Source: Actomonas aquatica
Lineage (GTDB): Bacteria > Verrucomicrobiota > Verrucomicrobiia > Opitutales > Opitutaceae
Assembly (NCBI RefSeq): GCF_019679435.2
Contig: NZ_CP139781.1
Coordinates: 1,054,001-1,118,000 of the forward strand
Length of the DNA: 64,000 nt
Direction of reading: 5' to 3'
Shown: one piece after another, positions 33,350 to 60,238 of the stretch
Numbering within the stretch: position 1 is the first letter of the stretch
Layout: the number at the start of each line of letters is the position of its first letter
Program-made: the position numbers and the translations under genes
The notes under the pieces: model-generated
The model's database searches: none
The model's input: the letters and a program-made list of their open reading frames with translations, nothing else
What the model was told of the DNA's origin: nothing

Positions 33350-34855
33350 ATGCCAACGCCTCCCGACCAACTGCTCCGAGAGTTTAAAGGCGATCTCCGC
33401 GCTTCCCTGCCCCTGCACCCCTTGGAGAAGGCCACCATCTGGGCAGTATCCATCACCCTCTGCGCGTTGCCCTGGATGCTCGGCAGTATGCGCGTCTGGG
33501 CTCAGCTTATTGGTTTCGGACTCGCTCTCGTCGCGTTTGCGCTGGCCTTGATTCCCCGCCATTTCGTCGGCGATTACACCCACAACCAAGCCTTCACCTA
33601 CTACCCGTGGAAGAAGCTGATTCGCTGGCCGTTCTTTTGGATCGGGATCCTCTTTTTTACTTACGTCCTCATCCAGGCCCTCAACCCCGCTTGGGAATAT
33701 GTCACGCATCCCGAACGCGGCACCTGGAGCATGCGCAAGATCGAGCACATCGACTGGCTGCCCACGGGCATGACGACCCCCTTCGCGACCATGAACACCT
33801 GGCGCCAAATGATGATCTGGACCCTGCCCTTTTTCGTCGGCTGCGCCATCTGGATCGGTTTCACCCGCCGCAAAAGCCTCATCGCCCTGCTGACCGTAGT
33901 AGTGGGCAACGCCACCGTGCTGGCGCTCGTGGGCATCGTCGCCCGCTACACCGCTCCGGCCAAGATCCTGTGGCTCGTGGATGGCATCCGAAACTACTGC
34001 TTTTCGTCCTTCGTCTACAAAAACCACGCGGGCAGTTTTTTTGCCCTCAGCGTCGGCCTCACCCTCGCTTTGGCCGTATTTGTCCATCAACGCGCGGCCC
34101 GGCATCAGCGTCGCAGCAGCCCCGCCAGCCTCTTGGTCTTCGTTGCCATGATTCAGTTGGTGGCCGTGCTGCTCACCTACTCGCGCGCCGCCATCCTCAT
34201 CGTGGGAGCCTTTCTGGTGGTGCTGACCCTGTTTGGGTTTATCCGCCTGTTGCTGCGTGGCGGGTTTAACCGTGCCCCCATCGCCATCGTTGGTTTCCTC
34301 CTCGGGCTGACCGTGTTTGGCGTGGTGGGCAGCAAGCTGGTCGAGTCCGAAAAGACCCTCGATCGCATCAGCCAGCTCACGAACAGCGAAAAGGCCGACT
34401 ATTCCGTGCTCAGGCGCCGCTTGGCCTGGGTCGCAGGATGGGATATGGCGTCGGAAAACGCGATGACCGGCTGGGGGGCCGGGGGCTTCCGGTTTTTGTT
34501 TCCCCGCTACCAACAAACCGAACCGAAAATCACTTGGCGCTACCACAACAAAAAACGCGGCTACATCTTCTGGGAACACGCCCACAATGACTACCTGCAA
34601 ACGCTGATCGAAGTGGGGCGCGTGGGCCTCGGACTCTTGCTGGTCGGCTTCGCCACGATGGTCTTAAGCTTTTTCCGCAACCGAGGGATCCACCACCTCA
34701 CCGGACTCTCCCTCTTTGCCGCTGCAGGAATCACCTTGGCCCATGCGGCCGTGGATTTCCCCCTGCAAAACCCGGCGATCTTGACCCTCTTGGCGGCGGT
34801 ATTGGTTTTGCCGCTTTCGCTGACCACACTGGAGCGCCGCCCCACCCGTGCTTGA
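33350..34855 (+). CDS. O-antigen ligase / polymerase family membrane protein
   Basis: A 501-residue protein with about 11-12 membrane segments and the large periplasmic loop typical of Wzy/WaaL proteins. The loop contains GWGAGGFRFLFPRYQQT and EHAHNDYLQTLIEVGRVG, which match the Wzy_C signature. It should join or polymerise undecaprenyl-linked glycans at the outer face of the inner membrane. The ATG at 33350 is preferred; GGAGG lies about 20 bp upstream, a little far. The next gene overlaps its end by 8 bp. Confidence 0.88.
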   Translation: MPTPPDQLLREFKGDLRASLPLHPLEKATIWAVSITLCALPWMLGSMRVWAQLIGFGLALVAFALALIPRHFVGDYTHNQAFTYYPWKKLIRWPFFWIGILFFTYVLIQALNPAWEYVTHPERGTWSMRKIEHIDWLPTGMTTPFATMNTWRQMMIWTLPFFVGCAIWIGFTRRKSLIALLTVVVGNATVLALVGIVARYTAPAKILWLVDGIRNYCFSSFVYKNHAGSFFALSVGLTLALAVFVHQRAARHQRRSSPASLLVFVAMIQLVAVLLTYSRAAILIVGAFLVVLTLFGFIRLLLRGGFNRAPIAIVGFLLGLTVFGVVGSKLVESEKTLDRISQLTNSEKADYSVLRRRLAWVAGWDMASENAMTGWGAGGFRFLFPRYQQTEPKITWRYHNKKRGYIFWEHAHNDYLQTLIEVGRVGLGLLLVGFATMVLSFFRNRGIHHLTGLSLFAAAGITLAHAAVDFPLQNPAILTLLAAVLVLPLSLTTLERRPTRA

Positions 34856-37800
34856 GACCTTTTTTAAGCGGATCCGTGCGATCTTGCGAGTAGGGCGCCC
34901 CGCCAAAAAAGGTAGGGTCGGACCACCGCGCTTGCCCCTCGGCCACTCCACCGCAACCGGCGAGCCCAGCGGTCCCGACATCGAGTCACGACAGAGAGGC
35001 AACGCGGCGGCCTCACACGAGGTTAGGCCCTACAACTTGCGTTGGGAAACCTTGGCCAGACACGCCCTCGTGCTCGTCAGCCTCTGGGGCCTGCTTTCGT
35101 TCGTCGCCGCCCAGTCTCCGCTCGGCTTTGACATGGGGCCGCCCCCCGAAGCGGCGGCTCGCACCATCAACAGCCTGAACCTCAACAATCCACCCACCGG
35201 TTGGATGCGCTTTCGTCGCCTCGGTCCGGGGGCGATTATGTCTCCGGCCCGACCTGACGAGACTAGTGAAGGCGTTCAGGAACGCCGCGATGCACTCACA
35301 CATATTCGTGAACGAGGCATCCGTGCCGTCGCGATTTTGGAATGGCCACGAAACTGGTGGAACAGCGGCCTTCGCGCTACCCCGTCTGAACTGCCGTTGG
35401 ACCTGACCGAAGCCTACCGACGCTGCCGCGACCTCGCTTACACCTACGGCGATCTCATCGACGCCTGGGAGATTGAGAACGAGCCCGACATTGGTTTCGT
35501 CAAAGAAAACGCCGAAACCTTCGCTGCCTTCTACAAAGCCTGCGCTCTCGGCATCTTAGCCGGCCGCGAAGCGGCCGCCTCGTCCAATAGTCTCAATGTC
35601 CAAAGTCGAATAGTCGACAGTAGCGAGCTCCAGCTCGCATCCAAATTCGATGAAAGCGGCAACGCCGCCGCTAGCGACATTGAGACCTTCGGACCTTCAG
35701 ACCTTCAGACCGTGCATGATCGCGCTGGAAGCGCGATCATGCACGCACCTCTCGCCCTTCCTCCCGGCCCCTACTGGCAAGAACTGGTAGCCAACGATAC
35801 CCTCCGCTACACTGAAGCCTTTAATTACCACTTCTACGGCTACCCCGAAGACTTCAAAGGCGTCCGCGATGCATGGGTTGCTGCGCTGGAAGCGGCAACC
35901 GAGGCCAGCGAACGGAGGTCAGAGAACGGAGCAGACTCAGAGCAGAACCGAAGTCTACCGGAAACGGAGGAAGAGCGGGACCTACCACAAAAACGCCCCT
36001 TGGTCGCCTCAGGTGCCGAACCGACCACCGCGTCAGCTACAACGACTGAGCCTGCGGAGCAGGCCGCTGATGACCTTCAGACCTTTAGACCTTTAGACCT
36101 TAAGACTCCGTCAAAAACGCCGGCGTTGCCGTTGTTTTTGACGGAATACGGCTACGGTCTCCTCGACCGTTACGACCGCCACACGGTCGCCGGACGGGAG
36201 CGCCAAAAACGGTTTTTCAAACTCATCCTGCCCCACGTGACCGACGGCACCATTACCGGCGCCATGGTCTATATGATGCTTCCAACTCAATCGCCGAATG
36301 GAAGCGAGTTTGGACTGCTTGCCGAAGTCCCCAAGGGACTTCGGCAAGAGTCTAAAGGTCTTAATGTATCAGGTCTATCCTCCTTCGCCTCGGCTTCGGC
36401 GGACAAGAATGTCACGGAACCTCCCCCCCCCAGTCCTCCCACCACTTCGCCTGACGCAACGCATCCCGACGAATCCGCCGCGTCAACAGTGGCTTCCACC
36501 CGACCTTCAGACTCTCAGACCTTAAGACGTTTAGACTCCACCGGGCTGAGCCCGGTGGTAATCGACTTCATCGCCGGTGAAGACACCCGCAGTGTGAAAC
36601 GCTACAACGGACACCTGCTGCAGAGGCGCGAAGCCGCTACTGCAGAAGTATCAAGCGGCAAGAATCAAGTTCCAGGAGTAGGACTCGACCTTGCGTCGCC
36701 GTCAGCCACAACGGATGCCGACGAAGCGCGGCAGCGCGTAGATGGTGCGACGAAATCGTCGCGCCCCGAAGGGGTGACGCAGTCGGTCGCCTACCAGGCA
36801 GACGAGGAACAACCTCATGCGACCGCTGACCAGAAACCAAGCCGACCTTCAGACTTGCGACCTTTATACTTGAGGAGTGAAGCGACGAGTTCCGGAGACT
36901 TCACCTTGGTCCTCTACAACTTCAGCGACGAACCAGTCACCGGCACCCTGTCCATCGCCCTCGAAAACGGCGAGATAAGACAACGCCAGCAATCCAGTGA
37001 CCGGTCCCCTTCTTCGCCTGACGTGAAACGTCGGGACGAATCCGCCGCCCATGTCCGCCATAGCAATGAAAAAGCGACGGCGGAAGCTTCAGCGAAGGAG
37101 GACACAGACCTAAAAACTTCCGATACAGCAGAGCCGTATCGCCGTCCCCCCACCCCACGCTCCAGCCTCAACCCGCCATCGGAACCCGACTGGCCCAACG
37201 CAGACAGCAGATTCATCACGACCAGCGACGGAAAAACCTACGCCATCACGCCAGCCTTGGAGCTGTTGCTGGAAACGGCCGCGACCGATGACCGAAGGAC
37301 CGAGGACGGAGAACAGGAGTCCGTAACTGGAGAACCGAAAACGCCAACCTCAAGCACCGCTGTAGCCGGGGTCGGTGCCCCCGGAACTCAGTCCCTCAGC
37401 CCCGAAGACAGCCGCACCGAGGCCGGACGCGACGACGTTCCCAGTACGGAACCGCCAGTCGAAAATAAACCGGAACACTCCCCCTCTGATTTCAGTGTTT
37501 CAACGTTTCAGCATTTCAGCGTTTCCAGCATATCCCTCGCCCCCATGGAACGCCGCGTCCTCCATTTCACAGCCACCCTCCCCAACCAAGAATTCCGCCC
37601 CCACCGCCTTTGGGCATTTTGGAACTTAAACGACGACTCCACTGATGCTTCGCCCGATCTTGAGGAACCTTCCGATCCCGCGGTCGCGGGACTGAGCGTT
37701 GCTCAGCCGAAAACCTCAGAAGCAGACTCGCAACCTTTAGACTCAAGGAACCCGTCTTCTTCCGATCCCGCGGTCGCGAAACTGGGCATTGCTCAGCCGA

Positions 37801-38732
37801 AACCCTTAGCGGCTGATTCTATTTCAGCATCTCAGCGTTTAAGTTTTCAGCGTTTTGACGCGCGCCTAGCGACGCGCCTCTACCCTTCCCCGGCCGCCTT
37901 CCGCTTCGAAACGCTCGATACCTTCAGCTTCACCGCCGAGGATAACGCCGCCGTCCGCGCCCGGCAACTCGCACGCCCCCGAGTCGCTGAAGAAGCTCAA
38001 CTCTACCAACACCCTACGGCCCAACGCTGGCTCACCACCCCGGGAGTTGAAATCGAAGAAACCCCGACCACTTGGCGGATCACCATCAACGACCTCCCCC
38101 CCGAGCCCCTCCGCCCCGCCGAACTGGAGCTCCCATTTCCTTCGCCTCGCGCTTCGCGCGTGGCCGAATCCGCCAACTTGTCCGCCATAGCCTTGGCGTC
38201 GGCGGAAGCCACCACTGCCTTGGCGAAGGAGGACCCCGACGCCGCCCTGTCCCTAAAATACCGCCTTATCATCCCCGCTTCGCCTAGCGTGAAACGCTCG
38301 GACGAATCCGCCGACTTGTCCGCCAAAGCTCATGCGGCGGCGGAAGCCACCACTTCATTGGCGAAGGAGGAAGCCACCACTTCCTCGTCGCGCTATGAGG
38401 AACTCGACATCAATTTTCGAGATGCCTCCGGCACCCTCTGGGGCGTATGGCCGCGTCTCACCGCCCAAGCACAATGGCGAAGTTACCTCGAACCGCTCAC
38501 CAACTTCACCCCCATGTTCTTCAGCCGCGCCCCCGTTTCTAACTCGAAGCACGAAGCCCCTGTCCGCCTACCTGTCCGCCGAAACAACCGTGAAGGAGGA
38601 AGCCTCGGCGAAGGAGGATCTGCTTTTTCGCCAAACGAGTTCCGATCGCTCGTTTTGCTTTTCCGTCCCCGCGTGCTGCCCACGGTGATCGAAATCGAAA
38701 AACCCCGCACCGTGCGCCTCGCGCCCCGCTGA
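34848..38732 (+). CDS. Clan-A glycoside-hydrolase-like protein invaded by in-frame repeats
   Basis: A 1294-residue frame. A membrane or signal segment lies near residues 72-88. The TIM-barrel part has the acid/base motif WEIENEPDIGF (about residue 211) and a likely nucleophile motif LFLTEYGYGL (about residue 432), as in clan GH-A (GH39/GH5-like). The barrel and the following domains are interrupted by stretches whose DNA is spacer-repeat sequence: GACCTTCA units at 35690-35713, 36070-36110 and 36506-36537, TTTCAGCN units at 37490-37525, palindromes at 35714-35746 and 36317-36347, and 90-nt elements (see findings). All keep the frame. Those stretches are likely disordered. It overlaps the ligase gene by 8 bp. 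Probable role: trimming the exopolysaccharide. Confidence 0.75.
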   Translation: MLETFFKRIRAILRVGRPAKKGRVGPPRLPLGHSTATGEPSGPDIESRQRGNAAASHEVRPYNLRWETLARHALVLVSLWGLLSFVAAQSPLGFDMGPPPEAAARTINSLNLNNPPTGWMRFRRLGPGAIMSPARPDETSEGVQERRDALTHIRERGIRAVAILEWPRNWWNSGLRATPSELPLDLTEAYRRCRDLAYTYGDLIDAWEIENEPDIGFVKENAETFAAFYKACALGILAGREAAASSNSLNVQSRIVDSSELQLASKFDESGNAAASDIETFGPSDLQTVHDRAGSAIMHAPLALPPGPYWQELVANDTLRYTEAFNYHFYGYPEDFKGVRDAWVAALEAATEASERRSENGADSEQNRSLPETEEERDLPQKRPLVASGAEPTTASATTTEPAEQAADDLQTFRPLDLKTPSKTPALPLFLTEYGYGLLDRYDRHTVAGRERQKRFFKLILPHVTDGTITGAMVYMMLPTQSPNGSEFGLLAEVPKGLRQESKGLNVSGLSSFASASADKNVTEPPPPSPPTTSPDATHPDESAASTVASTRPSDSQTLRRLDSTGLSPVVIDFIAGEDTRSVKRYNGHLLQRREAATAEVSSGKNQVPGVGLDLASPSATTDADEARQRVDGATKSSRPEGVTQSVAYQADEEQPHATADQKPSRPSDLRPLYLRSEATSSGDFTLVLYNFSDEPVTGTLSIALENGEIRQRQQSSDRSPSSPDVKRRDESAAHVRHSNEKATAEASAKEDTDLKTSDTAEPYRRPPTPRSSLNPPSEPDWPNADSRFITTSDGKTYAITPALELLLETAATDDRRTEDGEQESVTGEPKTPTSSTAVAGVGAPGTQSLSPEDSRTEAGRDDVPSTEPPVENKPEHSPSDFSVSTFQHFSVSSISLAPMERRVLHFTATLPNQEFRPHRLWAFWNLNDDSTDASPDLEEPSDPAVAGLSVAQPKTSEADSQPLDSRNPSSSDPAVAKLGIAQPKPLAADSISASQRLSFQRFDARLATRLYPSPAAFRFETLDTFSFTAEDNAAVRARQLARPRVAEEAQLYQHPTAQRWLTTPGVEIEETPTTWRITINDLPPEPLRPAELELPFPSPRASRVAESANLSAIALASAEATTALAKEDPDAALSLKYRLIIPASPSVKRSDESADLSAKAHAAAEATTSLAKEEATTSSSRYEELDINFRDASGTLWGVWPRLTAQAQWRSYLEPLTNFTPMFFSRAPVSNSKHEAPVRLPVRRNNREGGSLGEGGSAFSPNEFRSLVLLFRPRVLPTVIEIEKPRTVRLAPR
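34979..35050 (+). repeat. Left copy of a 70-bp inverted repeat
   Basis: Contains GAGAGGCAACGCGGCGGCC and CTCACACGAGG followed by TTAGGCCCTACAACTTGCG. Its reverse complement recurs at 38769-38848, just beyond the stop of the same ORF, with a 29-nt perfectly matching core. This copy is translated as part of the N-terminus (about residues 45-68). Confidence 0.85.
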
Positions 38733-38768: not shown

Positions 38769-38848
38769 AAAATGGTTTCACGACTCAAGGTGCAGGGTCT
38801 CACCTCGTGTGAGGCCGCCGCGTTGCCTCTCCGTCGCGGCTCGACACA
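38769..38848 (-). repeat. Right copy of the 70-bp inverted repeat
   Basis: Inverted counterpart of 34979-35050. Core: CCTCGTGTGAGGCCGCCGC then GTTGCCTCTC. It lies 37 bp after the stop of the invaded glycosidase-like gene, so the pair brackets almost the whole reading frame. Confidence 0.85.
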
Positions 38849-40618: not shown

Positions 40619-40966
40619 GGCGCCAGCAACTCATCGGCACTTTTGCGTCTCTTCCGCCATACACCTAAATGCGTTCCGTTTCGATCTGCGCCATCCGCTC
40701 AGACTACCCAACCTCCCCCCCCTGCTTACCACGTACCCGAACAGATGCTTACTCCGCAAATCGACCAGCGCTCTATTATTCCGGTCGACCCCGATTCGAA
40801 ACGCTTCTTGTTTGCTACCGGGTTCGGCAACCAACAATTTAAATTCCTACTAAAATAGCAGTCTCATAAAAGTAAAACAAGATTTGGTCCATGTGATGCT
40901 CAAAAGTAGGTCACCCGAAATGCATCTGTTATACTTCGTGAAACAAAGCACATACGCCTGAAACGA
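40619..40966. other. Spacer with no recognised feature
   Basis: Between the IS66 remnant and the convergent end of the exopolysaccharide operon. Base composition shifts here from GC-rich to AT-rich (from about 40850). The short frames are not supported. No strong terminator was identified. Confidence 0.5.
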
Positions 40967-41659
40967 TCATAAAACCGGGAACAATATCCCCAAAACCTCA
41001 TTAATGAGTAACTCATCATGACCGGCTAGTACAACCTCGCGGCGATCAAACCGAATAAAAATTTGGCTTTGTTTACGCCATACCCAGCCCCTAGCGTGCA
41101 AAAGCTCTGTTAACATGCTTAAATTGCTCGGAACGCTTGAACCGAAATCCACCTTCTCGCCCCCCAAAAATTGGCCAAAATAAGCTTCCCGACTATCGCC
41201 ACTCTTCTCGAAGACCCGATACTCTAACGAGTTAATAGAAGTTTGCGCATCATTCGGCACCTTCCAATCATCGACCCTAATGGATTTCCAACCTGATTTC
41301 ACCCAACAATTATCTGGGGTGTGAAATGCGACACTTCTCGGCGATTCGCGACCAGGACTCCAATAAGTTATAAAAATATGCAGGTCAGACTCTGAATCAA
41401 CAAAACGACCATACAAAACGTCGGTATACTTCAAAGTGTTCCTAACCTTTGACTCCATAAACTCTGTATCGCCTATACTTAATGGAACGAATCCTCGTAT
41501 CTCACGAATGCGCCTCATTTTTTCTAAATACGCTTCGTTGCCCACTCCACCTACCTCAAAGCCAAGCACCGTCGGAACCGCTACCGTTACTATCACAGTT
41601 AAAACCAACAGGCCTGCCCCACAATAAACCAGAAAAAATTTAGTTAATCGCTCATTCAT
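40967..41659 (-). CDS. EpsI-like exosortase-associated protein
   Basis: A 230-residue protein from the ATG at 41659. An N-terminal membrane anchor (FFLVYCGAGLLVLTVIVTVAV) is followed by a periplasmic domain. SVAFHTPDNCWVKSGWK matches the His-x-Pro-x-x-Cys-(Y/W) core of the EpsI/DUF3485 family, found in exosortase and exopolysaccharide loci. Function in the family is unclear, probably export or processing of the polymer. It is the last gene of the AT-rich - strand operon. No exosortase gene is in the window. Assignment is from the motif only. Confidence 0.6.
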   Translation of the reverse strand: MNERLTKFFLVYCGAGLLVLTVIVTVAVPTVLGFEVGGVGNEAYLEKMRRIREIRGFVPLSIGDTEFMESKVRNTLKYTDVLYGRFVDSESDLHIFITYWSPGRESPRSVAFHTPDNCWVKSGWKSIRVDDWKVPNDAQTSINSLEYRVFEKSGDSREAYFGQFLGGEKVDFGSSVPSNLSMLTELLHARGWVWRKQSQIFIRFDRREVVLAGHDELLINEVLGILFPVL

Positions 41660-41697
41660 TTTTAAACCATCTAACGCAATGTTTTTGGACAAAAACC

Positions 41698-42816
41698 TTA
41701 TACACTGCCTGCAGACGATTTCGCACACCAAGTGGAAATCTGTTTAGCAATTAAACTTCTGAACCTTTCCGGAGCAAACTGCTCTGATCTTCGACGACAT
41801 TTTACCGATGATATACCGTGAAGACCCGATTCGAACTTCTCAATTTCCGAATTGAGACTTACAACACTTGATTCATGAAAAAACAAACCCGTTTCATTTT
41901 CGACAACAGTCTCCAAAACTCCACCTTTCCCAAGAGCAATTACCGGAGTCCCAGAGGCCATCGATTCTAACGGAGTTATTCCAAAATCCTCTATTCCCGG
42001 AAATATGAAGGCTTTCGCCCTGGAATAGATATCTATCAAATTTTCATAACTTACTCTTCCAAGAAACTCTATTGAATTACCGGCTCGATTTTGGAGTGAT
42101 TTTCTCTCGGGACCATCACCTACGACGAGTAACCTACGCCCGGAAGCCGAAAACGCATCAACGGCGAGATCAATTCGTTTATAAGGAACCAACTCCGACA
42201 CCACCAAATAAAAATCTTCCTTATCATCTCTGAATCTAAAGTCTGTGATCTCAACCGGTGGATGAATGACTACCGACTCCCGCTTGTAACATCGAGCAAT
42301 TCGGCTGGCAACAAAATCTGAATTTGCAATAAAATAATTAACCTGCGACGCAGACCACTTATCGAAACTCCTGAGAAAGGGGACGAGCAGACGGAAAGCA
42401 ACTCTACCAAACACACCTAATTCAGTTGATTTACTGACATATTCATCTTGTTGGTCCCACAAATACCGAGGAGGAGAATGACAATAACAAATATGGACAA
42501 CCGACGAGCTCACCCGAACTCCTTTAATTAATGATGCGTCAGAACTAATTAATATTTCAGCATCTCCGCTCACGCGCAATAATCTAACGGCAACCGGAAA
42601 AATCGGAAGTAATTTTCTGTAGTAGGTCCCCACGTTCGGTAGAAAGTTCAGAACGGAAGATATGACCTCATGACCATGCATCCAAGGCTCCCAACGGGAA
42701 CGATCTTCAAACAATGTATAAATTCTGGCCCCTGGAAACATGAGCGAAAACTCCTTAAGGACCTTTTCGCCCCCCCGGTAACCATTAAGCCAATGATGAG
42801 CTAGTGAGACTTTCAT
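41698..42816 (-). CDS. Glycosyltransferase, GT4 family (WbaZ-like)
   Basis: A 372-residue GT-B enzyme. The N-terminus MKVSLAHHWLNGYRGGEKVL and the C-terminal donor-site block FPGIEDFGITPLESMASGTP are typical of GT4 mannosyl/glycosyltransferases close to WbaZ. The ATG at 42816 leaves 1 bp to the sulfotransferase stop; a start at 42831 would overlap. Donor and acceptor unknown. It presumably adds a sugar to the lipid-linked repeat unit on the cytoplasmic face. Confidence 0.88.
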   Translation of the reverse strand: MKVSLAHHWLNGYRGGEKVLKEFSLMFPGARIYTLFEDRSRWEPWMHGHEVISSVLNFLPNVGTYYRKLLPIFPVAVRLLRVSGDAEILISSDASLIKGVRVSSSVVHICYCHSPPRYLWDQQDEYVSKSTELGVFGRVAFRLLVPFLRSFDKWSASQVNYFIANSDFVASRIARCYKRESVVIHPPVEITDFRFRDDKEDFYLVVSELVPYKRIDLAVDAFSASGRRLLVVGDGPERKSLQNRAGNSIEFLGRVSYENLIDIYSRAKAFIFPGIEDFGITPLESMASGTPVIALGKGGVLETVVENETGLFFHESSVVSLNSEIEKFESGLHGISSVKCRRRSEQFAPERFRSLIAKQISTWCAKSSAGSV

Positions 42817-42817
42817 A

Positions 42818-43678
42818 CTATTCTTGATCAAACCAATGATCCACTGGACGTGGTAACAACGCTCTATACTTAGTGTAATCGTTCATAAAAAGTCCTCGTA
42901 ACCACGACCTATCTTCATTATTCAACTTCGGCTTCCCGCTTGCTCCATACTCACGGTAAAGAATTCGCTGCAGAGGGCCGCGTTTCAAAATCCCAACTAT
43001 TTCATCCATTCCCCAATCGCGTACTTTATTTGCCGTATGTGTTACAAATCTTGACAACAATTGATTCCGGGCTGTTGCCGCTCCCCTTGTTACCCCAGGT
43101 ATATACCCACAATTCTGCAAACCAAGATACCTTTGCAACTCTTCTGCGAAATAAGCCGAGTTACCGACAAGGTCATCGAATAAAAATATTCTAAAATTCT
43201 CTGACGGAAAGGTATTCACATATCGCGGTAGATGCTCTCCATACATACTATTTTCAACCAATTGCCCCCACCTTCCTGCAACCGCCTCCTGTAGAGATTC
43301 ACTAACAAGCCCTTTTCGACGTAAATAGAGATAATGCGAGAAAGTGCGCTCAATAGGATTTCGCAAACAACAGAATACCTTTACACTGGATCCTAGGCAT
43401 TCGAGAATTCGACCAGCGGCATTAGTGTCAAATAAGTAATCGTGTGACAACTCACCTACGGCTTTATGATGTGAACTAGCCCCTTTAAACTTCCCATAAT
43501 ACCATTCCTTGCCGCGCGAATAATAGCGGTCAAAAAAATACAAATCCTTGGATATAGGAATGTAACACTGAGGATTTCGCGCTAGAAGTTCATACATCCA
43601 TGATGATCCAGCCTTATCAGGGCCAATAAAAACAAAATTCGGGACATTCACTATTAAAGCCTTTCTATTGCTGAACAA
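42818..43678 (-). CDS. PAPS-dependent sulfotransferase
   Basis: A 286-residue enzyme with the two PAPS-binding motifs: the 5'-phosphosulfate loop FIGPDKAGSSWMYELL near residue 17 and the 3'-phosphate motif RNPIERTFSHYLYL near residue 105. It should transfer sulfate from PAPS to a hydroxyl of the exopolysaccharide or a precursor, giving PAP. The PAPS-making and PAP-recycling genes (cysD, cysN, cysC, cysQ) are 12 kb away. The ATG at 43678 overlaps the previous gene by 25 bp; a GTG at 43651 (MNVPNFVFIG) is an alternative. Confidence 0.88.
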   Translation of the reverse strand: MFSNRKALIVNVPNFVFIGPDKAGSSWMYELLARNPQCYIPISKDLYFFDRYYSRGKEWYYGKFKGASSHHKAVGELSHDYLFDTNAAGRILECLGSSVKVFCCLRNPIERTFSHYLYLRRKGLVSESLQEAVAGRWGQLVENSMYGEHLPRYVNTFPSENFRIFLFDDLVGNSAYFAEELQRYLGLQNCGYIPGVTRGAATARNQLLSRFVTHTANKVRDWGMDEIVGILKRGPLQRILYREYGASGKPKLNNEDRSWLRGLFMNDYTKYRALLPRPVDHWFDQE

Positions 43679-44790
43679 AACTCATCCACTGCGGTTAATC
43701 GGAAGAACTCGTTCAGTACTGACCTGTCTACATGAAATCCCATATCGCTATCCGCATAGCTAGCAATTTTATTTACAACATCCTGCGGCTGATCGAAATC
43801 GATCAAATTGTCGGCCGGCAAAAGTTTACCTGCAATTCCTACATTAGTTGATAAAACAATTCGTTCCGCACGAATAGCCTCTAAAAGTACTAGCTGCGAT
43901 GCCTCAATTCTGGATGGCAGTAAAACACAATCAAACTTTTTCCAGGTTTTCATATCCAACTTCACGAATCCATGAAAAACGACGTGCTTACCGATCCGCG
44001 ATCTATTGCATAGCACCTCCAGTCGGTCTCTATCTCGCCCATCGCCAATGAAGTGAAACACCATATTTGCCCTAGAAACTTCTCCAAGTCTTTTAATTAT
44101 ACTAATCAAGCGATCCTGTCCCTTCTGACGAAAATCGATTCGACCGGGCACAACTACATTAAAACACTCGTAATCGACTTGAATAGTACTCGTCGATTCT
44201 ATGCCGAATTCGTCCGAATCAAAAAAGTTTTCTACATAATTCCCGGTTTCAGGAACCCAGCCCCATAGTGGCAATGATTTCTCCTGATTAGGCAGACTAA
44301 CTATATTCTTCACTCCCCCTACCAACAGGCGAACACCAACACTCCGAATATATCCAAGAAACAAGCGGTGATGATGGGGTAGCGCCAAGAAGGGGGTATA
44401 TACTATAAATTGCGCACGTAAGATCCTTCCTAAAGTCGTAATTGACACAGCCTGCTCCAGCCCCCCCGCAATTACCAAAGTCTTATCATGCGAAAATATT
44501 CTTTTTCCTCTAAAGAACTTCCACAAAAGATACGCGAGCTCCACGGGAAACGATAATCCTTGATATCGCCCTAGACCCGAAGAACAGGCAATTAAATTCA
44601 CCTCCACACCTTTTATTGCATAAAGATCATCCAACAGAACTGAATTATACGGAGATACATAGCAAACCACCTTACGATAACGCGAAACTAAACCACGTAC
44701 ATACTTTACCGCCATTTTTTCATGTCCGCCATAGGTCTTTCTACTTAGAAAAACGCAGCCTAGATCGTTCGGATTATTCATTTGTTTCAA
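43654..44790 (-). CDS. Glycosyltransferase, GT4 family
   Basis: A 378-residue GT-B enzyme. GRIDFRQKGQDRLISI, then FHFIGDGRDRDRLE and the acidic donor-site segment PSRIEASQLVLLEAIRAERI identify a GT4 fold, with the usual EX7E spacing (ASQLVLLEA). It overlaps both neighbours (44790 over 44774; 43654 under 43678), so translation is probably coupled. Sugar specificity unknown. Confidence 0.85.
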   Translation of the reverse strand: MKQMNNPNDLGCVFLSRKTYGGHEKMAVKYVRGLVSRYRKVVCYVSPYNSVLLDDLYAIKGVEVNLIACSSGLGRYQGLSFPVELAYLLWKFFRGKRIFSHDKTLVIAGGLEQAVSITTLGRILRAQFIVYTPFLALPHHHRLFLGYIRSVGVRLLVGGVKNIVSLPNQEKSLPLWGWVPETGNYVENFFDSDEFGIESTSTIQVDYECFNVVVPGRIDFRQKGQDRLISIIKRLGEVSRANMVFHFIGDGRDRDRLEVLCNRSRIGKHVVFHGFVKLDMKTWKKFDCVLLPSRIEASQLVLLEAIRAERIVLSTNVGIAGKLLPADNLIDFDQPQDVVNKIASYADSDMGFHVDRSVLNEFFRLTAVDEFCSAIERL

Positions 44791-45856
44791 ATAAGAATTT
44801 TACGACCTGCAATGCCTCGTTAGACGCATCCGTCTTAGCATTTTTCCGGCGATCGTCCAAATAACTTACATTGTTTTCAGGAAACTCCTCAATTTGCCTG
44901 ATTAAGGCACTTTTTAAAGCGCCAACATGGCCCACCGGGAATACTTTATCACCAGAAGTCAAAGTTTGACGTGCGCCAACAGCCGATGAAGAAATAATAG
45001 GAATTCCGTAGGCTAGCGCCTCCGTAACCACATGACCCCATGGCTCCTCATATGAAGGAACGACCAATATATCGGTGCACATAAAAAAATCATGTTTCCT
45101 TCGCCCATCAACATATGAGATATAGTTAATTCTACGGTCCACTTCCGACGCTGCTTCAACTGAGGGAGCCAACTCCCCCTCTCCGGCTATTTGCAATATT
45201 ATGCTAGGTGTATTTATTTCTGAAAAGACATCAATCAGATCCATTACTCCTTTTCTCGAATTAAGCGCCCCTATATAAGATATCACAATACAACGCTCAT
45301 CGCCCCTGTATGTTCGGAACGGTATATCCCCCCCCCCATTAATTAAATTCCTTGGAAAAACTTGCCCTCCAACAAACGTACGTGCACCAGGCCGATAAGC
45401 TAAAACAAAGTTTCGTGAATCGTTAGAATAGCATAAGTATTTGGATACAGACTTGTAGAATAATCGGAACCAAAATTCTCGAAAAAGTCTCAGAAGGACA
45501 CTGCTCTTTCGAATACCGACCACATTGTGACCGACCCACCCCACAAATGGGACTCCATTTCTTTGAGCATGGTGCCTCAACCATAAGTTTCCATAAAAGT
45601 TATCCAAGCCGTTATCGAGTGACACTATACAGTCTAGCGGCATCTCAACCATGGGTCGCGCAAATCTACTACCTTTACGTAAAACCGGCACCTCGTTAAA
45701 CTTCCAGTCCTCTCGGTTTTGGGACCATTTTCTCCCTGCCAAGGTCTCTTTATAAAACGCAACATAAAGGCAAACGAAGTCGGATAACGCATTGAAAAAT
45801 GGTATACGATAAGGCGCAGGAAAATTAGTGAATATCAAAACCTTTTTCATACCCAT
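44774..45856 (-). CDS. Glycosyltransferase, GT4 family, with a G10 tract in the coding sequence
   Basis: A 360-residue GT-B enzyme (start VLIFTNFPAPYRIPFF; donor-site block PSYEEPWGHVVTEALAYGIP). The run of ten G on the coding strand at 45328-45337 (codons for Asn, Gly, Gly, Gly, Asp) is unusual and could cause slippage, switching the gene off by frameshift. The ORF is currently in frame. It overlaps the next gene by 17 bp and the previous one by 32 bp. The start could be at 45856 or at the second Met, 45850. Confidence 0.88.
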   Translation of the reverse strand: MGMKKVLIFTNFPAPYRIPFFNALSDFVCLYVAFYKETLAGRKWSQNREDWKFNEVPVLRKGSRFARPMVEMPLDCIVSLDNGLDNFYGNLWLRHHAQRNGVPFVGWVGHNVVGIRKSSVLLRLFREFWFRLFYKSVSKYLCYSNDSRNFVLAYRPGARTFVGGQVFPRNLINGGGDIPFRTYRGDERCIVISYIGALNSRKGVMDLIDVFSEINTPSIILQIAGEGELAPSVEAASEVDRRINYISYVDGRRKHDFFMCTDILVVPSYEEPWGHVVTEALAYGIPIISSSAVGARQTLTSGDKVFPVGHVGALKSALIRQIEEFPENNVSYLDDRRKNAKTDASNEALQVVKFLFETNE

Positions 45857-46862
45857 TGCACATATTGTATATTTCCGAGTGCTTGAAACCTATCGCCCCC
45901 CAACTAAAGTTTTTTGCAAGCTGGATCCCCCTTTTTAACCGAAGCTCAAGCTCATCATCATATTCAAAATCTAAAATACTTTGTGGTGGATTCTCCCAAT
46001 CATCAAAAACGCCAACTACATCGTCTAGACCTCTCGGGCTCTCTTTCCCGATCGTGGTAAAGATAGGACATCCATGTCCGAGTGCCGCCAACAATGTCCC
46101 ACGAGTATAGTTCGCGCCATCACGATAAGGAAGTAACACAGCTCTCGCAGTTAATAGTTCCGTAGATACGACCTCCTCAGTCGCGTCGAGCACGAGTCTT
46201 ATTCCGAGTGCCTCACATTCCCGTTTGACAAACTCGCCATATGCTTCCTGCCCTTTCATTATGCGCCCCATGATACAAAATTGCTTATCGGATCCGGAAA
46301 CGCGGGCTTCACGAACTAGATTTAGAAATCCAGCTAAACCTTTAGTATGATTCAAAAGGCCAAAGTATAAAAATTCGTTTCCGCGCTCACGAAGGAACCG
46401 ATCAGCCGATTCAGGATAATTGATATTCGAACCTATTGGCACAACCACCATATTAGTATTTAAACCTAGTGCGGAAGTCCTATATTTTACTTTCTCAGCT
46501 TCGGTTGTGAATATAATACATCGAGCAGTTGAGAAAAGCATCAGAGAAAGCTTTCGCAGCAGATGCAACCGAATAAATCCATGTATTGTCACATACGCAC
46601 GCCTCGAGAATATGACTGAAACTAAGTGAGGAATCAAACTCCATCCGTATGCAGCAGACGGATACTGAATATGAACAATATCTGGGTGCTTCCTCCAAAC
46701 CATTGACAACCATTTTGTAACTTTCCTAAAACCCCATTCCGATCCAGAAACTATATGCACCTCATGCCCCTCATTGGACAATGCCTTATTTAGGCACTGA
46801 GAATAGTCGCCGACACCACAGGCATCTGGAGGATAACTTCCTGCAAATAGAATAATTTTCAT
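45825..46862 (-). CDS. Glycosyltransferase, GT4 family
   Basis: A 345-residue GT-B enzyme. The N-terminus MKIILFAGSYPPDACGVGDY, with the early glycine-rich acceptor loop, and the YFGLLNHTKGLAGFLNLV stretch support GT4 membership. The donor-site part is less typical (LPYRDGANYTRGTLLAALGH). It is preceded by a TG/G-rich microsatellite and overlaps the downstream glycosyltransferase. Specificity unknown. Confidence 0.85.
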   Translation of the reverse strand: MKIILFAGSYPPDACGVGDYSQCLNKALSNEGHEVHIVSGSEWGFRKVTKWLSMVWRKHPDIVHIQYPSAAYGWSLIPHLVSVIFSRRAYVTIHGFIRLHLLRKLSLMLFSTARCIIFTTEAEKVKYRTSALGLNTNMVVVPIGSNINYPESADRFLRERGNEFLYFGLLNHTKGLAGFLNLVREARVSGSDKQFCIMGRIMKGQEAYGEFVKRECEALGIRLVLDATEEVVSTELLTARAVLLPYRDGANYTRGTLLAALGHGCPIFTTIGKESPRGLDDVVGVFDDWENPPQSILDFEYDDELELRLKRGIQLAKNFSWGAIGFKHSEIYNMCNGYEKGFDIH

Positions 46863-46868
46863 TTGAAT

Positions 46869-46925
46869 CTGTGTGCGGTGTGTAGGACTATGTGTGTGAG
46901 TGTGTGTGTGGGGGGGGGGCCGGGG
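46869..46925. repeat. TG microsatellite and G10 tract
   Basis: TG dinucleotide runs (46891-46910) pass into ten G (46910-46919) and CCGGGGG. The stretch lies between the MurB-like stop and the next start in the operon, where the ribosome-binding site and any promoter should be. Length changes could alter expression. Confidence 0.85.
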
Positions 46926-46928
46926 GAA

Positions 46929-47771
46929 CTAACGCCAAATCTTAACCTCTTCTTTGCAACGCAAACCGAAAACTTTATGTATTCTCTTTATGCGTTCTAT
47001 AAATTTAATTGCATCATCAAACTCCGCCCCCCCTCGATTGCATAGCGTCCCATTTTTGAAATACAACCCACCGGATTTATACCCATCAAATAACTTCATT
47101 ACCCAACGATTAGAATATTTAAATAATGACCCGCAATTCGGATATTGATATGGACGCTTGGCAACTACTGAAAGCCTATGACGAATTTCACTATCAACGG
47201 TTGCCTTCTCGCATTCCCGCAAGCGCAGTACCGCACCTAGAACTATACAATTCCCAAGATGTTGTAATTTAGTAAAGCGATAAGCCGCTTCCAAGTCACT
47301 TCTGCTCAACTCATGCAGCTTCACACCATCATGAACAATTACAGTTTCAACAAAATCGGTAAATCCCCGCACACTACCACAACCTGCATTCATTAATATG
47401 GCTCCGCCAACTGTAGCCGGTACAGAGAATAGATCTGAAATCCCACCAAGTCCGCTTTTAGCTAAATACCTAATCAACTTTTGAAGACGCACTGACGCCC
47501 CCACTTTCACATAGCCTCCCCCTAAATTCTCGATAAGATTTGATACCCCTCCCATAAATACAACTAGATCTGAAATGCCGTTTCCAGACGCAATTATGTT
47601 TGAACCATTGCCGAGTACACGAAAACTCATCCCCTCCCGTTGAATTTTCTCATAACCATTTTTAAACTCGTCAATTGAATCTGGTTTCCAAAGGGAAGCA
47701 ACTCCGCCTATCTTAATAGTTGTATATTCGCTCAAATTTTCGCGTTCTATCTTCATAACATTTTCCTCCAC
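46929..47771 (-). CDS. MurB-like FAD-dependent reductase in the exopolysaccharide operon
   Basis: A 280-residue protein of the UDP-N-acetylenolpyruvoylglucosamine reductase family. FAD-binding motifs VLGNGSNIIASGNGISDLVV and VPATVGGAILMNAGCG are clear, and the catalytic-serine region is PNCGSLFKY. The end of the substrate domain (YFKNGTLCNRGGAEFDDAI) departs from the usual HANFIVN block. It overlaps the pyruvyl transferase by 19 bp. The housekeeping murB is expected elsewhere, so this copy probably reduces an enolpyruvyl ether on an exopolysaccharide sugar. That is inference. Confidence 0.85.
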   Translation of the reverse strand: MEENVMKIERENLSEYTTIKIGGVASLWKPDSIDEFKNGYEKIQREGMSFRVLGNGSNIIASGNGISDLVVFMGGVSNLIENLGGGYVKVGASVRLQKLIRYLAKSGLGGISDLFSVPATVGGAILMNAGCGSVRGFTDFVETVIVHDGVKLHELSRSDLEAAYRFTKLQHLGNCIVLGAVLRLRECEKATVDSEIRHRLSVVAKRPYQYPNCGSLFKYSNRWVMKLFDGYKSGGLYFKNGTLCNRGGAEFDDAIKFIERIKRIHKVFGLRCKEEVKIWR

Positions 47772-48925
47772 TTCTCAATGAACCTACGTCCCTCAAGAGC
47801 TAGATTCTCCATTCCTTCAGCTATTCTTGACATATCCATGGAACCAACTGGATCAATACTATTTACAGTTTCCTCCATACTAGATGTCCCCAGATTTCGG
47901 TACCGCTCAGCCAACCCCAACTGTTCAAGCAAGAACTTAGTTTTACTTTCAGTCTCAACATATACCCGCCCAACATCTATAACATAAGCCGGGACTTTTG
48001 CTTTCAATCCGAAGATAAGTTCATGAAATGACTTTGTTATGACAAGATCAAATAGCCTAAAAGCGACGGCCCATTCAAGCGGGGAAAATATCGTTCTTAA
48101 ATCATAATCGCAGTGACGGTTGGCGGTCATTGTGACCACAACCCACCCCATTCCATGAAATTTTTCGTATAGTTGTCGGTTTAGTTCGTTAGATGCAGTC
48201 GAAATCGACACCACTTTGCGCTTACCTCCATTACCCATCATACTATGCAGTTTCCGTCGAACGGATTCATCGCCGTATACGTTGAAATCATGCAATATTG
48301 TCGGATCCGGAACAAGATGCACATTATCCTTTATCCCAACAAAACGAAGTTGCTCTAGCGTATGCCGATCCCGAACACCAATCATCTCAAACTGCCGCAA
48401 TGCCCGTTCTATGAACTCCAATTTTACATCCGAAAGTTTTGAATAAATCGCGCCATTCGCGGATGCGGCGTAAGAGATCTTTCTAGCACTTAACCGTTCA
48501 TCAGCCATATATACATTCGGGAATGGTCTAGATGTTTCCCTCAGAGTTGAAAAAGGCGACACTGAACTACCGTGCACCTTCCACACTTCATCACTCCCAA
48601 CGCACACCCAGTCATAATTCTTACTATTTAAATAGTTTATCGATCTCGTGTAGTCATCGGATCTAAACCTAGGACCATCAAAGTCAAACAACGCCCCCTG
48701 GGCGCCTTTCATACGAAAATAATCCGTAATATTCCCGCGTCTTCTTACATTCATAAGCCGCTTTTTGAGCATATTGCATTCCTGCGCAACCGTACAGATA
48801 TTAGGGAGTCGAACACCCAAGCCTTCTGACTCAAGCATTTTGAGCTCTGAATAGAGCGAATACGCCTGCAATACAGCTCCCCTCCCGATATTATTAAAAT
48901 AAGTAAGTAGACCGACAGTTTTCAT
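47753..48925 (-). CDS. Polysaccharide pyruvyl transferase family protein
   Basis: A 390-residue protein of family PF04230. Signature segments: VGLLTYFNNIGRGAVLQAYS at the N-terminus, VCVGSDEVW in the middle, KISYAASANGA, and LVPDPTIL. Members add pyruvate from PEP to a sugar, normally as a ketal. The gene overlaps both the flippase (4 bp) and the MurB-like gene (19 bp), implying a shared function with the latter. Whether the product is a ketal or an enolpyruvyl ether cannot be read from sequence. Confidence 0.88.
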   Translation of the reverse strand: MKTVGLLTYFNNIGRGAVLQAYSLYSELKMLESEGLGVRLPNICTVAQECNMLKKRLMNVRRRGNITDYFRMKGAQGALFDFDGPRFRSDDYTRSINYLNSKNYDWVCVGSDEVWKVHGSSVSPFSTLRETSRPFPNVYMADERLSARKISYAASANGAIYSKLSDVKLEFIERALRQFEMIGVRDRHTLEQLRFVGIKDNVHLVPDPTILHDFNVYGDESVRRKLHSMMGNGGKRKVVSISTASNELNRQLYEKFHGMGWVVVTMTANRHCDYDLRTIFSPLEWAVAFRLFDLVITKSFHELIFGLKAKVPAYVIDVGRVYVETESKTKFLLEQLGLAERYRNLGTSSMEETVNSIDPVGSMDMSRIAEGMENLALEGRRFIEKWRKML

Positions 48926-50271: not shown

Positions 50272-50325
50272 TTTACGCCAAAAATTTTGTTCGAAATATA
50301 GTATATTTTGTTTCTCATTTAGCTA

Positions 50326-51579: not shown

Positions 51580-51660
51580 AGTGCTTTAAATTTGAAGATC
51601 ACACCCACTCAAAGTCTCAAATCCTCAATCCGTCAGCGATTGTAGATTTTCGTATACTGG

Positions 51661-53799: not shown

Positions 53800-53849
53800 A
53801 TGGTGCCTCGAGCCATGCGAGAGGTGGCCCAAAGGGCCCGTTTCGGCGG

Positions 53850-56736: not shown

Positions 56737-58005
56737 ATGAGTACCACGAATTACACTGACATGGAACTGCTCCGCTTCACTACGGCGGGGTCCGTCGATG
56801 ACGGGAAGAGCACGCTCATCGGGCGGCTCATGTATGACACCAAGACCATCTTCGAGGACCAACTCGACTCCATCGAGCGCACCTCCAAGCAGCGCGGCGA
56901 CGGCCACCTCGACCTCGCCCTGCTCACCGATGGTCTGCGCGCCGAGCGCGAACAGGGCATCACCATCGATGTGGCCTACCGCTACTTCGCCACGCCGCGC
57001 CGCAAGTTCATCATCTCCGACACGCCCGGCCACATCCAATACACCCGCAACATGGTCACCGGCGCCTCCACCGCCAACCTGGCCATCATCCTGGTCGACG
57101 CGCGCAAGGGTGTCATCGAGCAGACCTGCCGCCACTCCTTCATCGCCTCCCTGCTCGGCATCAAACACATCACCGTCGCCGTGAACAAGATGGACCTGAT
57201 CGACTTCGACCAGGCCAAGTTCGACGAGATCGTGCGCGCCTACAAGGACTTCGCCAGCCGCCTCGACGTGCCGGAAATCACCTTCATCCCGATCAGCGCC
57301 CTGCACGGCGACAACGTGGTCGAGAAGTCGGCCAACACGCCATGGTATCAAGGCCCGACCCTGCTCTACCATCTCGAGACGGTTTACATCGGCACCGACG
57401 CCAACCACGTCGACCCGCGCTTCCCGGTCCAATACGTCATCCGCCCCCACTCCGACGAGTGGCATGACTTCCGCGGCTTCGCCGGCCGCGTCGCCAGCGG
57501 CGTCTTCAAACCGGGCGACGACGTCACCGTGCTGCCCTCCGGCTTCAACGCCAAGATCAAGGCCATCCACACGCACGACGGTGAACTCGACGAGGCTTTC
57601 GCCCCGCACTCCGTCGCCATCACCCTCGACCGCGAGATCGACATCTCCCGCGGCGACATGCTGGCCAAGCCCAACAACCAGCCGACGGTCGGCCAGGACA
57701 TCGACCTCATGATCTGCTGGTTCTCCGAAAAGAAGAGCCTCGCCCCGCGCGGCAAATACCTCCTGCGCCACACCAGCAAGGAGTGCCGCGCCGTCGTCCG
57801 CGACGTGCACTACAAAGTCGACGTCAACACCCTCCACAAACACGAGGACGACAAGACGGTCAGCCTGAACGACATCGCCCGCATCACCCTGCGCACCTCC
57901 GCCCCCCTCTTCTACGACTCCTACCGCAAAAACCGCATCACCGGCTCCATCATCCTCGTCGACGAATTTTCCAACGAGACCGTGGCCGCCGGAATGATCC
58001 GGTAG
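56737..58005 (+). CDS. cysN: Sulfate adenylyltransferase subunit 1 (GTPase)
   Basis: The regulatory GTPase of ATP sulfurylase; GTP hydrolysis drives APS formation. A 422-residue EF-Tu-like protein with G1 GSVDDGKSTLIGRL, the ITIDVAYRYF switch, G3 DTPGHIQY and G4 NKMD. The usual C-terminal APS kinase domain is absent, and a separate cysC follows. It needs CysD, encoded upstream of the inserted four-helix-bundle gene. Confidence 0.96.
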   Translation: MSTTNYTDMELLRFTTAGSVDDGKSTLIGRLMYDTKTIFEDQLDSIERTSKQRGDGHLDLALLTDGLRAEREQGITIDVAYRYFATPRRKFIISDTPGHIQYTRNMVTGASTANLAIILVDARKGVIEQTCRHSFIASLLGIKHITVAVNKMDLIDFDQAKFDEIVRAYKDFASRLDVPEITFIPISALHGDNVVEKSANTPWYQGPTLLYHLETVYIGTDANHVDPRFPVQYVIRPHSDEWHDFRGFAGRVASGVFKPGDDVTVLPSGFNAKIKAIHTHDGELDEAFAPHSVAITLDREIDISRGDMLAKPNNQPTVGQDIDLMICWFSEKKSLAPRGKYLLRHTSKECRAVVRDVHYKVDVNTLHKHEDDKTVSLNDIARITLRTSAPLFYDSYRKNRITGSIILVDEFSNETVAAGMIR

Positions 58006-58333
58006 ACACGGGCTCGTTGGTCTAAAAGTCGGAATGTCTTAAAGTCTTAAGGTCACCAGCAGCGGCTTGCCTGCCTCAGGCATGGCTTAGCCGCGACCGA
58101 GAAAAACGGGGCGCGGGCCCTCCCGCAGTTTCGACCTCCGGACCTTTAGACTAAATGACCTTTAGACCCCAGCGCATCGCGCCGGTGGGGCGCGGGCCCG
58201 CCCGCCCCCTGCATTATCGAATGCGGCCGAGCCGCCGCTGATGACTTTTAGACTTGGGACATTAAGACATTTAGACTCCTCCAAACGGCCCACCCGGCCT
58301 TGAACGGGAGCAACCACAACAAATTTCACCGCC
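58006..58333. repeat. Inverted pair of period-8 arms between cysN and cysQ
   Basis: The purine-rich arm (58020-58057: GTCTAAAA, GTCGGAAT, GTCTTAAA, GTCTTAAG, GTCACC) begins 15 bp after the cysN stop. The pyrimidine-rich arms at 58133-58170 (GACCTCCG, GACCTTTA, GACTAAAT, GACCTTTA) and 58243-58280 (one 7-nt unit) face it. GCGGCTTG/GGCTTAGCCGC and CGCGCCGG hairpin pieces lie between them. Confidence 0.85.
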
Positions 58334-59896: not shown

Positions 59897-60191
59897 CGCC
59901 GCGCACGTCGGAAGGTCTTAAAGTCCTAAGGTCTGAAAGTCACCACCGACGCGGCTGCGCCGCGACCTATAAATATGGAGTGTGGGTCCTCCCTCAGACT
60001 CGACAACTAGAGCTTGGGGCACTTCGCCCCTTAAGACTCCGGCACATCGCGCCGGTGGGGTGCGGGTCCTCCCGCAGACTCGACCTTTAGACCTTAAGAC
60101 CTTCGACCTTTAGACCCACCTGTCCCCGGCTTGCCGCGGCAAAGCCGCCGCTAGCGACCTTTAGACTTTTAGACACTCCGACCTTTAGACC
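59897..60191. repeat. Period-8 arms between convergent cysC and epimerase
   Basis: Purine-rich arm 59907-59944 (GTCGGAAG, GTCTTAAA, GTCCTAAG, GTCTGAAA, GTCACC) follows the cysC stop by 10 bp; pyrimidine-rich arms at 60074-60115 and 60156-60191 (GACCTTTA, GACTTTTA, GACACTCC, GACCTTTA) lead to the end of the convergent gene, for which they are the purine-rich downstream form. GCGGCTGCGCCGC hairpin pieces lie between. Confidence 0.85.
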
Positions 60192-60238
60192 GTTGGTTGC
60201 GGGGCATCCGCCTCAAAGGCGGATGCCCCGCAACCAAC
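60192..60238 (-). terminator. 22-bp perfect hairpin spanning the epimerase stop
   Basis: 60192-60213 and 60217-60238 are exact reverse complements with a 3-nt loop (CAA). The right arm encodes the last residues of the epimerase (WLRGIRL); the left arm lies just after its stop codon, so the gene's final bases have an inverted copy outside. No T-tract follows, so termination is possible but unproven. Confidence 0.55.

Follow-up and report, generated by a model that had tools for sequence, protein, structure and literature searches.

Introduction

Rickettsia palindromic elements (RPEs) form families of about 150-bp elements that encode a conserved peptide, and the portions of PMC10969869 that deal with them describe how numerous functional genes, unrelated to one another, carry such repeats in frame. 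In Opitutus terrae, conserved genes such as uvrA contain GTAG-tagged repetitive extragenic palindromic (REP) sequences that are read in frame, as passages of PMC3733652 report. Stems can be made and maintained by reverse-complement copying of adjacent sequence, according to parts of PMC8794818 and PMC8604942, and perfect inverted repeats lie within translated genes of nematomorph mitochondria, as the relevant text of PMC6649704 has it. Here, we analysed a 64,000-nucleotide stretch of the Actomonas aquatica genome (contig NZ_CP139781.1, positions 1,054,001 to 1,118,000; hereafter the window), in which a glycosidase-like open reading frame (ORF) carries in-frame repeat inserts, several of whose joins to the host sequence are palindromes.

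This gene bears on how in-frame repeat inserts arise: it holds several of them, and there are orthologues that lack them. On balance, and with some reserve, we favour a working glycosidase whose loops were repeatedly invaded in frame by repeats, with snap-back arms made by template switching and with mostly neutral inserts.

Results

In-frame inserts in a glycosidase-like gene

About 597 of the 1294 codons of the ORF (positions 34848-38732, plus strand) lie in non-core inserts. This corresponds to about 46% of the ORF and bears out the high load noted in a preliminary description of the DNA. The inserts form ten merged stretches, the first of which (65 codons) is the doubtful N terminus. Their boundaries were defined by orthologues without inserts. 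The full-length alignment comprised 21 proteins and excluded L133 (frameshifted), L118, L128 and L132 (duplicates of G031, G008 and G027) and G018, which ends at a contig edge. Most of the 20 other proteins lack the inserts of the window protein, and no distant orthologue among the 20 carries the same residues at these places. Non-core residues number 586 in the window protein, 502 in L117 (410 at the N terminus), 345 in the sister species G001, 337 in L131, 241 in G012, 240 in L130 and 16-129 in each of the remaining 15 proteins.

The 597 insert codons contain no in-frame stop, versus 16, 24, 27, 14 and 16 stops in the other five frames (97 in total); were stops as dense as in the local spacers, zero would occur with a probability of 6e-10. 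This makes translation very probable. Compensating unit lengths, which had been thought necessary to keep the frame open, are not: no special device is needed if the inserts that kept the frame are those that survived.

Orthologues were found in 9 of the 57 genomes searched (own genome counted), and the 30 orthologue loci among genome contigs include 10 from Opitutaceae or its genera, 4 from Opitutae and 9 from other Verrucomicrobia. We took 17 of the 30 loci to check the reading frame, and 16 were open. Between the window genome (G000) and G001, the core differs at codon positions 1/2/3 by.36/.30/.60, a pattern of purifying selection, and the insert regions differ by.54/.46/.65, their residues diverging faster than the core. 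Judged from such sequence comparisons, the gene is very probably real, conserved and translated. We give hardly any credence to a decaying pseudogene that is open by chance. The very high insert load, the lack of a Pfam or NCBIfam match and the frameshift in the orthologue L133 would suit it, but the missing stops, the retention of both presumed catalytic glutamates and the purifying-selection pattern speak against it.

Copies of seven of the nine internal inserts, but of none of five core segments, were found at other places in 2.2 Mb of the same genome; matches were counted whether or not they lie in a spacer. In a model of the compact orthologue L120, eight of the nine internal insert sites fall in coil or at its edge, a count made without a coil control, in agreement with the proposed placement of the inserts in loops. 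A low-confidence model of a window fragment gave mostly pLDDT values below 50 for inserts 1 and 2, each between a helix and the next strand. The inserts are lineage-specific, lie in loops or next to them, and carry repeat material of the genome (8-nt arrays, a REP-like hairpin and other repeats). Orthologues, frame and repeat copies thus agree with the preliminary description of a glycosidase-like ORF enlarged in frame by spacer-type repeats.

In other genera the loops of the same gene hold repeats of different kinds: G012 has REP-like hairpins, G010 GGACGGTGGACAGT-type repeats, L116 CAGCAACCAGC and L130 CCGTCCT-type repeats. The filling of the same loops by different repeats in several genera would fit inserts that are adaptive, as disordered linkers recruited from spacer DNA and selected for polysaccharide or surface interaction. 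We consider this very improbable: inserts of the same kind lie in PurL, MetH and SNF2 loops, which points to tolerance rather than function, and insert residues diverge faster than the core.

As a separate observation made by eye, in L130 and L131 the C-terminal beta region (FYP...ELPLP) sits in the loop before LPIFLTEYG/LPIMLTEYG and not near the C terminus. L130 has in-frame arrays at both places of the beta region, as if arrays had mediated the move.

Snap-back palindromes at insert joins

Four insert/host joins are hairpins, adjoining three GACCTTHA arrays and one reversed octamer stretch (Table 1). At all four, one arm is coding sequence conserved in orthologues, and the other is its reverse complement, which abuts the array. 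The order is always host, loop, inverted copy, array, and the direction of the array relative to the host is constant. By orthologue comparison, each of the four joins combines an ancestral arm, a reverse-complement copy, a near-perfect stem and a short loop, as expected of template switching. The arrays and palindromes listed in the preliminary description were all present, with small shifts: the palindrome placed at 35714-35746 with a 15-bp stem has a fully paired 16-bp stem and slightly different limits, and those given as 36317-36347 and 36538-36559 moved by one position at one or both ends. The fourth, imperfect palindrome was absent from that list.

By eye, the left end of insert 1 shows a further, 7-bp snap-back (35562-35578). 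The hairpin that G001 has at the first join is a different one, of 8 bp. At the left join of insert 3 the ESK codons, a reversed-octamer remnant, are common to G001, which suggests that the site is older than the split; the stem is perfect only in the window genome, and the copy would therefore have been made or renewed later.

Hairpins are more numerous in the window than chance would give: five have at least 10 bp and three at least 12 bp, two of the latter in this gene. Five Markov-shuffled windows gave 0-2 and 0, respectively, and 400 kb of other sequence from the same genome gave 19 and 8.

The four palindromes do not form a dispersed family: no two stems are alike, and each has an arm of host codons. 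What does recur are the arrays and further patches of the inserts. The resemblance to RPEs that had been proposed is fair for the phenomenon, but finds no support for the palindromes as RPE-like mobile elements.

The GACCTTHA array family

With one mismatch allowed, GACCTTHA repeats are confined to 71 kb round the cluster plus four further places of the 6.1 Mb genome. The stretches that contain them yielded 22 arrays of at least 19 nt, of which 17 fall in the 71 kb. Only the three arrays of the glycosidase gene lie in a gene call, so that the supposed confinement to spacers elsewhere is correct for this family. It is nearly correct for TTTCAGCN, with one other gene-call array in 624 kb, and does not hold for 7-8-nt arrays taken together, which lie in frame in other conserved genes too. 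A GATT-heptamer family of the same genome occupies about 37 dispersed sites that share longer stretches, unlike the clustered GACCTTHA family.

On the 3' side of the 22 arrays, hairpins scored at least 7 in nine cases and at least 9 in seven, versus none on the 5' side; random positions reached these scores in 0.7% and 0.08%. Sorted by array neighbour, hairpins with a score of at least 8 were found at 3/3 arrays inside a gene, 5/6 at a gene 3' end, 1/7 at a gene start and 0/6 without an abutting gene. Single units (n=16, 11 nt) gave little signal (2/16 on the 3' side, 1/16 on the 5' side).

One alternative, which we hold to be unlikely, is that mobile REP- or RPE-like palindromes landed in frame, perhaps moved in trans by REP-associated tyrosine transposases (RAYTs; Y1 transposases), and that the hairpins are part of the element. 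Insert 1 does contain a GTAG REP-like hairpin, the genome has nine Y1_Tnp matches above the cut-off (candidate RAYTs only), and intragenic REPs are known in O. terrae, as passages of PMC3733652 describe. In addition, the PurL and MetH loops of G002, G003, G004 and G005 hold REP-like or other repeat elements, and close to either end of inserts 1 and 3 lies an inverted octamer stretch, like terminal inverted repeats (in insert 3 at 36348-36372 and 36514-36538, 84% complementary). However, each of the four array-side palindromes has its own stem with one arm of conserved host coding sequence, which an inserted element cannot bring, and the arrays are clustered, unlike a freely moving element. The host arm is older than the insert, so that arrival with a mobile element cannot by itself account for the hairpins. 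A REP-like mover of the arrays is possible, since the MetH insert, like inserts 1 and 3, has inverted array stretches, and since Y1 transposase matches are present.

Template switching would also apply to the joins at gene ends. At the 3' ends of an epimerase gene and an EF-Tu-like GTPase gene (Table 1), the inner arm consists of the last part of the coding sequence (CDS), and that C terminus is kept in close relatives. At the GTPase gene end, G000, G004 and G007 each invert their own, differing codons (0/200 shuffles as good). Separately, a 16/17-bp snap-back with an adjoining octamer array was seen over the start codon of a GDP-mannose 4,6-dehydratase-like gene (L073:4585-4622).

Selection could instead keep such hairpins, with compensatory changes, for a role at the RNA or DNA level, such as protecting the mRNA 3' end, termination or a pause at insert borders. 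This would suit their frequency at array-abutted gene 3' ends as against gene starts, and the match of the arms to different codons in three congeners. Yet four hairpins lie inside one ORF and one over a start codon (L073:4585-4622), where a terminator is senseless; octamers and no U-tract come next, and hairpins at gene ends did not exceed the control of 306 background genes. We regard selected structures as quite improbable, and on these grounds intrinsic terminators were ruled out.

In-frame arrays in other genes

In-frame heptamer arrays were also found in PurL (two loops), MetH, two SNF2 helicases (same loop), two SASA esterases and an AcrB-like RND pump. The inserts are thus not special to the glycosidase, as had been supposed; the gene is the extreme case of a wider habit of its genome. 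The corresponding PurL, MetH and SNF2 loops of congeners hold different repeats or lack repeats.

In a fresh 1.6 Mb, 18 arrays longer than 30 nt lie inside gene calls, and nine of those gene calls were looked at. Some of the arrays reflect the periodicity of GC-rich coding sequence, and three seem to be spacer or spurious calls. The L166 array was rejected as an insert, because it stops where HisA begins and is upstream spacer in an overlong call; the arrays of L163 (near the N terminus) and L157 (no family) were not counted either. A GTAGCGA-type array with an 8-bp hairpin lies in frame within a 5578-aa gene call (L036:3543-3574).

Snap-backs of 7-8 bp close the SNF2 loop in three congeners, with the ends AGTCGGC/GCCGACT in G004, GAGTCGGC/GCCGACTC in G005 and GGGCCGGC/GCCGGCCC in G007 (shuffles as good: 7/300, 0/300 and 0/300). 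The insert arm follows each host's codons. At PurL, snap-back joins paired 10/10 in G000 (beside an AAATCCC array), 12/13 in G001, 9/9 in G016 and 11/11 in G012.

For 45 loops of such genes, a test that was partly post hoc and left out six of the seven site-1 glycosidase loops, hairpins scored at least 8 in 15 (nine with an arm in conserved flank) and at least 9 in nine (seven in flank). Of 900 equal-length control windows in the same genes, which were not sorted by flank, 4.2% and 1.9% reached these scores. Minus the glycosidase, the counts were 9/30 and 6/30. These limits of the test are the first of several points that weigh against recurrent template switching, and two MetH hairpins in it may have both arms in host sequence. 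Five of eight SNF2 loops have no snap-back, including that of G000 itself, and the same holds for the G000 MetH loop. The GTPase gene end is weak in G001 (22/200 shuffles as good) and shows nothing in four of eight loci, including G002. The epimerase and PolX gene ends are strong only in the window genome (eight and seven loci compared), L096 being marginal (2/200 shuffles), and in the 306 background genes hairpins at gene ends were no commoner than within genes (4 vs 3 at score 8).

For 7-8-nt arrays generally, 80 fresh stretches (1.6 Mb) gave hairpins at 2/162 array ends, with 0.9-2.2 expected. Array ends in G001 gave 0/10 and those in other genera 1/96. Earlier sets had yielded 9/86 in 480 kb of the own genome, where four stretches had been chosen for GACCTTHA, and 4/70 in the region. 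The 9/86 had suggested a rule by which all 7-8-nt arrays would have a snap-back; given the 2/162, we rejected it. Among 104 hairpins in the fresh sample, two have one arm alone in a gene call, and one of these adjoins an array (a new join, L227). The link between hairpins and arrays is therefore strong for one array family and patchy beyond. Finally, the proposed template switches are read from the joins, and translation and enzyme activity are both predictions from sequence.

Protein family and fold

The window protein had no match in Pfam (E 0.001) or NCBIfam, five orthologues gave no credible match in Pfam (E 0.1), and a whole-protein sequence search of PDB chains found none up to E 1. That is, a conserved protein family goes unrecognised by Pfam and NCBIfam here. 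Because the model of the window fragment was too poor (mean pLDDT 50.6), we searched folds with the model of L120 (mean predicted local distance difference test, pLDDT, 86; predicted template modelling score, pTM, 0.89). In VIA, its barrel resembled the glucosidase 5z3k (Z 15.0), GH39 5jvk (14.7) and PslG 5bx9 (14.0); rows within Z 1 of each other are ties, and 5z3k thus ties with the GH39 rows. The first Foldseek row was Xyn30D (E 5.8e-13), with low TM-scores (0.29/0.38), since the model is multi-domain. The C-terminal part resembles CBM11 (6r3m, VIA Z 12.4, 153 residues).

The L120 model and the alignments together give a (beta/alpha)8 barrel with two glutamates, as in GH39 and clan GH-A. 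Glu212 and Glu433 are invariant across alignments, and we take them, from what is known of clan GH-A, to be acid/base and nucleophile. The modelled fold thus suggests a clan GH-A-like protein near GH39 and PslG with a CBM11-like C-terminal domain. Glycosidase activity is a prediction, as a shared fold shows no function.

PslG of Pseudomonas aeruginosa is a GH39 enzyme encoded in an exopolysaccharide (EPS) cluster. The glycosidase studied here is like it in barrel fold (L120 model: VIA Z 14.0, 288 residues, root mean square deviation 3.7) and in its EPS gene context, and differs in that identity is 15% and in extra beta domains.

Genomic setting

The ORF lies between an O-antigen-ligase-like gene (Wzy_C) and a polyprenyl glycosylphosphotransferase gene (Bac_transf; TIGR03025), which places it in an exopolysaccharide cluster. 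Its first 63 codons are probably untranslated spacer, because an in-frame TTG precedes a signal-peptide-like stretch and because 34981-35051 is a 71-nt inverted copy (86%) of 38774-38844. This repeat flanks the glycosidase gene and extends past the proposed start. The product is probably secreted.

Elsewhere in the window, GC falls from about 0.60 to 0.43 over 40900-52000, a run of minus-strand ORFs and perhaps an acquired gene set, and 61798-62044 is a tandem repeat (70-nt unit, 3.5 copies, 92% matches). No known RNA family reached its gathering score in the window.

Table 1. Coordinates (window positions) of the glycosidase gene, its inserts and joins, and two joins used for comparison
Feature	Position	Strand	Remarks
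Probable glycosidase CDS	35037..38732	+	Signal-peptide-like N terminus from in-frame TTG 35037; putative start
Presumed acid/base Glu212 codon	35481..35483	+	NEP motif; invariant in alignments
Insert 1	35572..35729	+	Helix-to-strand loop before APLALPPGP; ends by eye from joins (alignment: 35592-35714); 58 nt recur at 60136-60193
Reversed octamer-type stretch, left end of insert 1	35582..35600	-	84% complementary to 35676-35694
GTAG-tagged REP-like hairpin in insert 1	35620..35641	+	By sequence reading; family features after passages of PMC3733652
GACCTTHA octamer array, 3' end of insert 1	35676..35710	+
Snap-back palindrome	35711..35745	+	16/16, loop GGA; right arm is host codons S-A-I-M-H before APLALPPGP
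Insert 2	35904..36106	+	Loop before LPLFLTEYG strand; terminates in octamer array 36072-36106
Snap-back palindrome	36107..36145	+	Imperfect, 16/18, loop GTT; right arm is conserved LPLFLTE codons
Presumed nucleophile Glu433 codon	36144..36146	+	TEYG motif; first two bases within right arm of palindrome 36107-36145
Snap-back palindrome	36318..36348	+	14/14, loop CAA; left arm is LAEVP codons after FGL, common to G001; reversed octamers next
Insert 3	36335..36547	+	Ends by eye from joins; contains GACCTTHA array 36502-36536
Snap-back palindrome	36538..36558	+	10-bp perfect arms; right arm is conserved SPV of SPVVIDF
Insert 4	36633..36875	+	29 nt recur at 53778-53806
Insert 5	36978..37525	+	Repeat patches (12 repeat matches) and TTTCAGCN array 37490-37525
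Insert 6	37629..37855	+	61-nt direct repeat (37669, 37759) and TTTCAGC patch; second TTTCAGCN patch at 37822-37855
Insert 7	38140..38233	+	Repeat element, 81% like 38278-38371; alignment gives 38151-38225
Insert 8	38278..38371	+	Second copy of insert 7 element; no match outside gene in sampled genome
Insert 9	38532..38624	+	No repeat match in sampled genome
Comparison join, EF-Tu-like GTPase gene 3' end	57971..58020	+	Snap-back 19/23, octamer array beyond
Comparison join, epimerase gene 3' end	60192..60238	-	Snap-back 22/22, stop codon at turn, octamer array beyond

Discussion

The joins, with their inverted copies of host codons, are a footprint that points to an insertion mechanism. Repeat material of the genome would enter surface loops many times, in frame. 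At a join the nascent strand would then fold back and copy roughly 9-22 nt of adjoining host sequence by a template switch, a process which, as sections of PMC8794818 describe, can create and maintain hairpins. It would recur, the arm being copied again as host codons change; recurrence is suggested by the nearly perfect stems, given that one insert site or more seems to predate the split from G001. Selection would then act only against copies with a broken frame or a disturbed fold, leaving inserts that are mostly neutral, disordered loops. The gene shows coding palindromes evolving under protein constraint, and template switching of this kind is testable in housekeeping genes of relatives.

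We can extend the idea to the whole genus, including PurL and SNF2: short 7-8-nt spacer arrays would enter loops of conserved enzymes by fold-back synthesis, and the joins would be sealed by renewed reverse-complement host codons. This broader version is tentative, and we doubt it more than we believe it. If true, proteins would grow in a distinct way, and the glycosidase would be the product with the heaviest load.

The locus shares with RPEs and in-frame REPs the presence of repeat DNA in frame in a functional gene, function being deduced here from conservation. It differs from RPEs, as far as the portions of PMC10969869 concerned describe them, in its tandem 7-8-nt arrays and mixed repeats, and in join palindromes with their own host-derived stems. 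The intragenic REPs of Opitutus terrae are alike in coming from a close bacterial group and in being REP-type repeats in frame; the REP passages of PMC3733652 treat single, grouped and dimer REPs, whereas tandem arrays and inverted host-codon copies at joins are the feature here. Template-switch mutations are reported, in the parts of that literature considered, for RNA genes and yeast coding DNA, and are tied here to insert/host joins and an array family. In the text on Nematomorpha both arms of the inverted repeats encode conserved residues, whereas in the present gene only one arm is conserved, the other being insert. We found no account of in-frame 7-8-nt arrays with snap-back joins in the open-licence literature. 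In-frame repeat inserts as such are already known; the snap-back array joins are the new part.

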